From the NCBI GenBank assembly GCA_034723125.1, contig JAYEOP010000311.1, positions 1-34,612 of the forward strand: 34,612 nucleotides of DNA, written 5' to 3'. The notes under the pieces were generated by a model that had not been told where the DNA came from, did no database searches, and worked only from the letters and a program-made list of their open reading frames with translations. The DNA comes from Bacteroidota bacterium (lineage in GTDB: Bacteria > Bacteroidota > Bacteroidia > CAILMK01 > JAAYUY01). Positions within the stretch are counted from its first letter, which is position 1; each line of letters starts with the position of its first letter. Shown here piece after piece: positions 711 through 3,310 of this stretch. Position numbers and translations under genes: made by a program.

Positions 711-718
711 TTAACATA

Positions 719-755
719 CCGCACAAAAGTAATTGCTTTTGTGCGGTTAATTTAT
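719..755 (+). terminator. Intrinsic terminator after the PKD gene
   Basis: CCGCACAAAAG at 719-729 pairs perfectly with CTTTTGTGCGG at 736-746 around a 6-nt loop. The T-rich stretch TTAATTTAT follows. It lies directly between the PKD gene and the next gene and ends 15 nt before that gene's ATG. Confidence 0.8.
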
Positions 756-761
756 AAAATT

Positions 762-2336
762 ATGAAACTATTTATAACAACACTAATAATATTTTGTTTT
801 ACTACATCAGATATAAAAGCACAAGAACTAAGAAGGATTAATTTCAGTATTAATGTAAATAATGTATTTACTTACCCTCATGTTGAGAATTATTATGGTA
901 CTAATGTTGGGAAAATAGAAGCACGTATCGGAACAGGAAGACAACTTGAATTTAGAACTAATGTGAGAATTGCTGATAATTATACTGCTTTTACAGGTAT
1001 TTCACTTTTAGGTTATAGAACAAAAACAGTTTTTTATTATTTCAAATATTATTATCCTTCTACTAAACCAACTTTATTCCACTATCCTCCTGATATTGTT
1101 CGGCACATGTTAACAGAAATACCCTTAGGTCTTTCAAGGTCATGGCATTTGACTGAACAATTTTCGCTTTCTGCAGAACTTGGAATGAAATTGTCAGTTA
1201 TTGAAGCATTGGATGTTCCTATGGGTTTTGAGAAAATTTCACTTTTAGAATCAGGTGATAGTTCTCATTTTTGTTTATTACAAGATTATTACTCTAATGA
1301 GCCATATACTTATTTTGACAAGAAAAAAACTCTTTTTTATAAGTATTTTAGTGAAATTAATATTTATAAAAAATTAAAAAATCAAAATCTTTTGGGACTT
1401 GGATTAAATTATACAGGTGCATTTTACAGAAAAACTAAACCTCAGGTGGAGGGTTATAGTTATTTTTATTATTACGACAAATTAAGTGGTAAAGGATATA
1501 TGCGTAATTCAGGTTCATATCTTGGAATAAAGATTTCTTATGTTTTTGGTCGTGCTAAAAGTAGCCACGCTCCATTATTTGATAAAGTACAAAAAACTGA
1601 TGAACTTAGAAGGATTAATTTCAGTTTAAATCTTAATAATGCATTTACCTACCCTCATGTTGAAAATTATTATGGTACTAATGTTGGAAAAGTTGAGCCA
1701 CGCCTTGGAATAGGATGGCAACTTGAATTTAGAACTAACTTAAGAATTGCTGATAATTATAATGCTTTTATGGGGTTTTCGCTTTTAAGATATAAAACAA
1801 TAACCAAACATTATTATTATTACCATCCTTCTATAGTTAATTTTAATATTTTTCCATTTAAAACGAAATCTTTATTAACAGAAATTCCCTTTGGTATTTC
1901 AAAATCATGGGATTTATCTGAAAAGTATTCATTGTCAGCAGAACTTGGAATAAAATTGTCAGTTATTGAACATATGATTAGTGATTTTTCTGTAGGTAAA
2001 CCAATAATAGCAAATGTAGGTGATACGAATCATCATCTTTTGTATTTCCAAAATCTATACACTAACAACGATTCTTTATTTAATAAGAAAAAACCACTTT
2101 ATTTTAAATATTTTGGTGAAATTAATATTTATAAAGAATTAAAGAATCAAAATCTATTAGGATTTGGTTTGAATTACACAGCTGCATTTTTTAGAAAAAC
2201 TAAACCTCAGGCGGAGGGTTATAGTTATTTTTATTATTACGATAAATTACGCGGTGAAGGATATATACGAAATTCAGGTTCATATCTTGGAATAAAGATT
2301 TCTTATATTTTTAGACTTGCTAAAAAGAAAAAATAA
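762..2336 (+). CDS. Exported protein with two tandem beta-barrel-like domains (hypothetical)
   Basis: 524 residues from the ATG at 762. The frame can be extended to a GTG at 741, but that lies inside the upstream terminator stem, and the ATG gives a clean signal peptide: a Lys start, a hydrophobic core at residues 3-15, then IKA|QE near residue 20. The mature protein is two homologous halves, residues 22-~266 and ~281-524. Each begins LRRINFS and ends with an aromatic-rich stretch closing on GSYLGIKISY. Alternating aromatic and polar strands, and a terminal aromatic strand in each half, suggest an outer-membrane beta-barrel like the small porin-type barrels of Bacteroidota. I do not recognise the family. 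The upstream terminator argues for its own promoter, which I could not identify. Confidence 0.7.
   Translation: MKLFITTLIIFCFTTSDIKAQELRRINFSINVNNVFTYPHVENYYGTNVGKIEARIGTGRQLEFRTNVRIADNYTAFTGISLLGYRTKTVFYYFKYYYPSTKPTLFHYPPDIVRHMLTEIPLGLSRSWHLTEQFSLSAELGMKLSVIEALDVPMGFEKISLLESGDSSHFCLLQDYYSNEPYTYFDKKKTLFYKYFSEINIYKKLKNQNLLGLGLNYTGAFYRKTKPQVEGYSYFYYYDKLSGKGYMRNSGSYLGIKISYVFGRAKSSHAPLFDKVQKTDELRRINFSLNLNNAFTYPHVENYYGTNVGKVEPRLGIGWQLEFRTNLRIADNYNAFMGFSLLRYKTITKHYYYYHPSIVNFNIFPFKTKSLLTEIPFGISKSWDLSEKYSLSAELGIKLSVIEHMISDFSVGKPIIANVGDTNHHLLYFQNLYTNNDSLFNKKKPLYFKYFGEINIYKELKNQNLLGFGLNYTAAFFRKTKPQAEGYSYFYYYDKLRGEGYIRNSGSYLGIKISYIFRLAKKKK
825..2333 (+). repeat. Intragenic tandem duplication (two ~0.75-kb units)
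   Basis: Copy 1 is 825 to ~1559 and copy 2 is 1602-2333, with a ~42-nt linker. The starts are 777 nt apart and the ends 765 nt apart, so small in-frame indels have accumulated. The first ~85 nt and last ~60 nt of the copies are nearly identical at DNA level, while the middle has diverged strongly. Confidence 0.9.
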
Positions 2337-2590: not shown

Positions 2591-3310
2591 TTATTTTTTA
2601 TCTGAATCTTCTTTTTTGTCTTCACTTTCAGCTTTCTTTTCCTTTGGTTCTTCTTTTGCCTTTGGCTCTTCTTTCTTTACTTCATCCTTCTTTTCTTCTT
2701 TCTCAACTTTCACTTCTTTTTTTGCTTCAGGCTTATCTTCTTTCTTTTCTTCCTTTTTTGCTTCTGGCTTTTCCTCTTTTTTTGCTTCGGTCTTTTCTTC
2801 TTTCACTTCAGCTTTTTCCTCTACATTAGCTTTTGCCTCTTCAGTAGTTTCTTTTGCTACTTTATCAGTAGTTAATTGTTCTGAAGTGGATTTACGTCCT
2901 CGCCTTGTTCTCTTTCTTCCTGTTGATTTTTTCTCATCTTTAACATAAATATCGTTAAAGTCAACTAGTTCAATGATACAAGTTTCAGCATTATCTCCTA
3001 ATCTTTTACCAAGTCTTATAATTCTTGTATAGCCACCAGGTCTATCAGCAATTTTTTCAGCTACTACATCAAACAATTCTTTTATAGGATGTTTGTCTTT
3101 CAATAATTTAAAAACATTTCTCCTAGATTCAGTAGTATCTGTTTTTGATTTTGTGATGATGGGTTCAACGTATTTTCTTAAAGCTTTTGCTTTAGCAACA
3201 GTCGTTGTAATTCTTTTATGCAGAATTAAAGATGTTGCCATATTAGCCAACATTGCTTTTCTATGGGCTGATTTTCTGCCCAGATGATTAAATTTCTTTC
3301 CGTGTCTCAT
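2591..3310 (-). CDS. rplQ: Large ribosomal subunit protein bL17 with a long Lys/Glu tail
   Basis: bL17 sits near the peptide exit tunnel of the 50S subunit. Residues 1-~122 are a complete bL17: [12 protein letters not shown] at the start, then [10 protein letters not shown], the [12 protein letters not shown] motif and the IIELVDF strand. Residues ~123-239 form a basic stretch ([10 protein letters not shown], 131-140) followed by ~95 residues built almost entirely of Lys, Glu and Ala in loose repeats of the type [10 protein letters not shown]. The E. coli protein is 127 residues. Bacteroidota bL17 often carries a C-terminal extension, but this one is long. It is the last gene of the alpha operon, 4 nt after rpoA, and is followed by a strong terminator. 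Confidence 0.97.

Follow-up and report, generated by a model that had tools for sequence, protein, structure and literature searches.

The window analysed here, 34,612 nucleotides in length, is the whole of one contig (C311) of a Bacteroidota draft genome that consists of 620 contigs and is 96.47% complete. Most of the contig is occupied by minus-strand genes for ribosomal proteins, RpoB/RpoC, and elongation factors, as named by eye from their translations. At the left end lies a plus-strand gene, convergent with rplQ, whose product contains two similar barrel-like halves, referred to here as domains A and B (Table 1). The original prediction gave the duplication as 825–2333, which fits the mature part of the protein, but the full open reading frame spans 762–2336. 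It also described the product as exported, and the protein is indeed exported-looking, with a signal-like start of 21 residues recognised by eye.

Table 1. Coordinates of the double-barrel gene, its predicted parts, and the features upstream of it in the window.
Feature	Coordinates	Strand	Basis and remarks
PKD-domain protein, C-terminal part, truncated by the contig end	3–710	+	PKD_4, E 3e-17
Terminator-like 13-pair hairpin directly 5' of the gene	718–747	+	Terminator-like scan match
Double-barrel gene, 524 aa	762–2336	+	Open frame with ATG at 762; domain profile matches twice within the frame
Signal-peptide-like N-terminus, MKLFITTLIIFCFTTSDIKAQ	762–824	+	21 residues, read by eye from the translation
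Barrel domain A, predicted strands b1–b8, last residues SYLGIKISYVF	825–1547	+	66% identity with B; strands and loops parsed by eye; amphipathicity test
Domain A loop L2, predicted extracellular, variable	1023–1106	+	38% identity with the B loop; borders by eye
Domain A loop L3, predicted extracellular, variable	1203–1331	+	31% identity with the B loop, dN 0.79; borders by eye
Domain A predicted loop L4, conserved, Tyr-rich	1425–1514	+	83% identity between copies
Inter-barrel linker, GRAKSSHAPLFDKVQKT	1548–1598	+	About 17 residues
Barrel domain B, last residues SYLGIKISYIF, then RLAKKKK	1599–2333	+	66% identity with A
Domain B predicted loop L2, variable	1800–1871	+	Placed through the A–B alignment
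Domain B predicted loop L3, variable	1968–2096	+	Placed through the A–B alignment

The truncated gene upstream codes for a PKD protein with a cysteine-containing C-terminal region, for which no Pfam or NCBIfam family scores above its cut-off. The segment 700–770 folds with −22.5 kcal/mol (z −5.87), and because the hairpin within it ends 14 bases before the start codon there is little room for a promoter; perhaps the hairpin is an attenuator placed between the PKD gene and the double-barrel gene. The spacer between the convergent genes (2430–2510) contains short imperfect repeats, TTTGACAGACGCAG and TTCGACAGACGAAG, noted by eye. Beyond it, the L17-like product encoded at 2591–3310 (239 aa) has a long low-complexity tail rich in lysine and glutamate, and the frames at this position vary in length among relatives.

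The two copies, taken as 825–1562 and 1599–2333, find each other in a search within the genome with 66% protein identity and an E value of 1.7e-96, and their resemblance is not a chance match. The DNA repeat families D1, D3, and D4 are 87%, 81%, and 83% identical, 552 of the 729 aligned codon bases are the same and 177 differ, and the overall dN/dS is 0.50. The internal duplication of a whole barrel-like domain that had been proposed at this locus is thus present as two tandem copies, and the duplication of the whole predicted barrel appears to be fairly young. Searched with a profile built from the two units, the genome yields no further copy at E values up to 10; with a broader family profile it yields one additional weak match, to a 417-aa frame (E 7.8e-10). 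No single-copy version of the domain was found in this draft genome.

Because the genome is a draft in 620 contigs and the gene sits near a contig end, the doubling could in principle be an assembly artefact in which two related genes were misjoined. However, the frame runs unbroken across the junction at 1548–1598, and frames with two domains are also present in other genomes. The 177 base differences are too many for collapsed repeats, and together with the visible constraint they make a collapsed or chimeric assembly unlikely; we regard such a misjoin as extremely improbable.

After alignment of the two halves, eight strands, four long loops, and three short turns were assigned by eye. Identity between the copies is 78% over strands b1–b3 and 83% over b6–b8, compared with 46% over the stretch between them. 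The contrast between like ends and a diverged centre that had been described is therefore real, but 'nearly identical' overstates the likeness of the ends. When positions are sorted by class, the strands and turns together are 77% identical (dN/dS 0.29), loops L1 and L4 are 85% identical (dN/dS 0.17), and loops L2 and L3 are 33% identical, with a dN/dS of 0.88; because the interval on this last value is wide (0.39–1.84), positive selection on L2 and L3 is not shown. The difference between middle and ends at the protein level was equalled in none of 5000 permutations, and the divergence sits in predicted loops L2 and L3, as would be seen if surface loops diversified after duplication, one of the two explanations put forward originally.

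The other explanation was that repeated gene conversion homogenised the ends while the middle escaped. Synonymous divergence is lower at the C-terminal end (pS 0.26, compared with 0.45 in the middle), and the longest identical run, of 36 bases, also falls there. However, the contrast is far stronger in the protein than at synonymous sites, where it was equalled in 308 of 5000 permutations with both ends included and in 172 of 5000 with the C-terminal end alone. In codons for the same residue, the third positions agree at 129 of 158 sites and do so fairly evenly along the gene (14 to 19 of 20 per bin, and 17 of 18 in the last), and no unusually long run of identical third positions occurs, the longest being equalled in 2587 of 5000 permutations. 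As this run is ordinary and the synonymous contrast is weak at most, selection accounts for the pattern and a separate conversion of the ends is unnecessary; we consider it improbable, although there may be a mild homogenising effect at the C-terminal end. Relaxed or diversifying selection on two loops fits the shape of the divergence better.

No Pfam or NCBIfam model recognises the window protein above its cut-off, and three weak sub-cut-off Pfam matches of the full protein, including one to a PelB C-terminal barrel (E 0.043), are not relied on. PDB sequences gave no match to profiles A1 or A2, and pattern scans of genome contigs returned 59 and 124 matches from which no relative was confirmed. 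A two-row profile matched 16 genomes besides its own at E values up to 0.05; nine of these loci were inspected for plus-strand frames and only the one in G046 was kept, with those in G116 and G147 appearing DNA-methylase-like by eye. The full protein matched just one of 148 other genomes, again the 524-aa frame of G046, over its C-terminal 75 residues or so. Through this frame we reached frames of 542 aa in G042 and 526 aa in G173, as well as adjacent single genes in G308 and G012 and single genes in G095 and G232.

A profile of 12 domains that leaves out the window finds its halves with 25.4 and 26.7 bits, compared with 9.3 for the best of 1000 shuffles and 1.8 and 4.6 for the reversed sequences, and hhalign pairs this profile with the halves at 95.6% over 222 columns. 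Once 26 single-barrel frames are included, the halves score lower, at 10.7 and 13.4 bits (hhalign, 84.1%; best shuffle, 6.7). When the profile is made from single frames only, neither half is recognised: their 5.5 and 3.5 bits stay below the 7.1 of the best shuffle, and hhalign gives 2.4%. The window protein is therefore linked to the family by way of G046 and the other relatives of the double or tandem type.

Profile A2 contains 14 domains, among them those of the window and of the double genes traced from it, and it matches 225 of the 395 genomes of the class, the window's own included, at E values up to 1e-4. The matches listed are mostly single frames of about 230–370 aa. A search for single-domain homologues had been suggested as a check, and many distantly related single frames of about 250 aa occur in the class. 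Among the matches listed there are at least five frames with two domains, namely the window gene, one each in G046 and G173, and two adjacent genes in G042; four of these five are seeds of the profile, and up to seven candidates were scored per genome. A single clear domain is present in each of the frames from G002 (501 aa), G011 (532 aa), and G006 (415 aa) and in the 417-aa frame of the window's own genome, and these were not counted as doubles. In the family of G173, 22 of 24 genomes match at E values up to 1e-15, with two domains per frame in G173 only among the matches listed. The other genome of the two in G042's family has no match at E values up to 1e-15, and G046's family consists of G046 alone.

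Two of these loci contain larger arrays. In G042 (L094:3991–7269) the two adjacent double-domain genes, of 550 and 542 aa, are 84% identical and provide four tandem domains, and their neighbour is a frame that contains SBBP beta-propeller repeats and matches PKD below the cut-off. In G308 (L097:3172–6965) there are four neighbouring frames that match the family (295, 301, 289, and 319 aa), two of them strongly.

The parse of each half, read from the sequence, contains eight amphipathic strands and a last strand like that of outer-membrane proteins, with loops of 22, 28, 43, and 30 residues alternating with turns of 4, 5, and 6 (borders by eye). We scored the fold as the best eight non-overlapping amphipathic stretches, optimised alike on real and shuffled sequence, and this score was equalled by only one of 300 shuffles for half A and by none of 300 for half B. 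The corresponding counts for four domains from three relatives are 0, 6, 5, and 5 of 300, and those for eight control pieces from seven proteins of the window are 143, 78, 130, 255, 138, 264, 6 (ribosomal protein S3), and 17 of 300. A simple count of amphipathic peaks gave no gain over shuffles (66 and 276 of 1000), and shuffle tests of the strand borders, with 0 of 2000 in both cases, are given no weight because borders drawn by eye are biased.

These data suggest that each half is a complete small barrel, and that the chain holds two eight-stranded barrels rather than one of 16 strands. The halves could alternatively close together as a single 16-stranded barrel with a porin-sized pore, in which the linker would be a long periplasmic turn. 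Such an arrangement is compatible with the strand number and the position of the linker, and AlphaFold, with a mean pLDDT of 30.7 for one half (two-row alignment) and 27.4 for the full-length protein by itself, leaves room for it. However, homologues also exist on their own, in frames of about 250 aa that have a separate start and a last strand of similar kind, from which it follows that each half already holds a complete unit, and the paired domains of the G046 and G042 frames resemble different relatives. A 16-stranded barrel is thus unlikely. We favour, with a probability of roughly 70%, two complete small barrels, most likely eight-stranded, in one chain with a periplasmic linker of about 17 residues, in which loops L2 and L3 have diverged.

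The two halves of the window protein come out as sisters, with a support of 100/100, in a tree of 42 domains. The first copies of the double genes fail to group as a single clade (AU test, p 3.75e-65, for a group named before the tree was seen), and neither do the second copies, as read from the same tree. Because first and second copies do not fall into two clades, fusion has likely happened more than once; this conclusion is weakened by several long branches in the tree, for which the program warns of false joins. A single ancestral double gene that was later homogenised in the window lineage could also account for these relationships.

The window gene itself could have arisen when adjacent single-barrel genes fused, with loss of a stop codon and a signal peptide, instead of by duplication within a gene. 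Adjacent single-barrel genes do exist in the family, as the pair in G012 and the run of four frames in G308. However, the window's own draft genome offers no single-copy version, and no significant trace of a signal peptide or of a 3' flank is left in the linker: the one strong match in a search for such relics is the start of the domain itself, and the others extend over 7–8 bases with E values of 0.22–0.88. We rate fusion as a serious possibility, at somewhat short of even odds. The site beyond rplQ was examined in eight of the nine order relatives with an rpoA match (G009 was left out), and the stretch fetched from these eight contains no family frame of 150 aa or longer. A broader scenario, in which adjacent small-barrel genes fuse recurrently across the class and the window gene is a recent or recently homogenised case with two of its four loops specialising towards a two-faced receptor, is offered tentatively and is rather doubtful as a whole.

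Sec-dependent export, folding by BAM, and a short periplasmic linker are expected of outer-membrane proteins generally. The double-barrel protein would accordingly be exported by Sec, and BAM would then fold two barrels in one chain; each half retains a last strand of the outer-membrane type. The linker would join the barrels on the periplasmic side; an even number of strands brings the end of each half back to the periplasm, allowing tandem joining without a change of topology. Constraint on the scaffold and on loops L1 and L4 would have persisted after duplication while the extracellular loops L2 and L3 diverged and specialised, so that the protein would probably display, instead of a pore, a pair of small neighbouring surfaces for binding or adhesion that are related yet distinct. 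Because the barrels are small and the loops divergent, the most likely function is surface binding or adhesion through two related faces. We infer this binding role, like the fold, strand number, topology, and export route, whereas the duplication, the selection contrast, and the relatives are shown.

Among known families, PF13568 (OMP_b-brl_2) resembles the halves in size and strand pattern, and it is matched by their distant relatives. Its cut-off is passed by four of 16 family frames (G173, G232, L056, and one frame of G308), with two stretches matched in the double frame of G173; the other 12, including the doubles of G046 and G042, fall below it, and the window protein gives no match up to E 1, either in full or as separate halves. 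Homology to PF13568 is nevertheless indicated through intermediates, at a distance, since the 12-domain profile finds the halves and its rows from G173 and G232 pass the cut-off. The window protein differs in having this domain doubled. The double genes of G046, G173, and G042 are alike in length (524–550 aa), in a signal-like N-terminus recognised by eye, and in two domains found by the same profile. In the three double frames compared, however, the halves miss each other by phmmer at E values up to 10, whereas those of the window find each other at about 1e-99, and the domains of these three genomes group differently between genomes in the tree. PorP/SprF, the type IX secretion partner barrels, were considered because of the PKD protein upstream, and they give no Pfam or NCBIfam match up to E 1.

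Multi-barrel outer-membrane proteins were reportedly described by Solan, Pereira, Lupas, Kolodny, and Ben-Tal in PNAS in 2021, who are said to have stressed eight-stranded combinations and repeated lineage-specific fusion. In the window protein one chain contains two domains, each with homologues among free-standing barrels, and profile A2, which includes the window, matches it twice at full length. Chains with more than one outer-membrane barrel form a published class, of which GfcD/YjbH is the best known, and the window protein shares with them more than one predicted complete barrel in an exported chain (PMC11494523, PMC9603273). Two barrels in one chain had originally been called unusual; given this published class and the relatives with two domains per frame, they are no strong anomaly. 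GfcD carries two unlike barrels, one of 12 and one of 13 strands, separated by a periplasmic domain, and has a connection with polysaccharide export (PMC11494523); the window protein, in contrast, has two like small barrels and a short linker, and no capsule-export gene was recognised by eye among the frames of the window. A narrow search of titles and the openings of abstracts found no report of tandem small barrels in this class. The window gene changes no general picture, but in its duplication the constraint on the scaffold and the divergence of the loops can be separated codon by codon, and it could be useful for testing how BAM deals with a chain that carries two last-strand signals. Compared with the systems above, it is a fairly ordinary new example of an already known multi-barrel kind.
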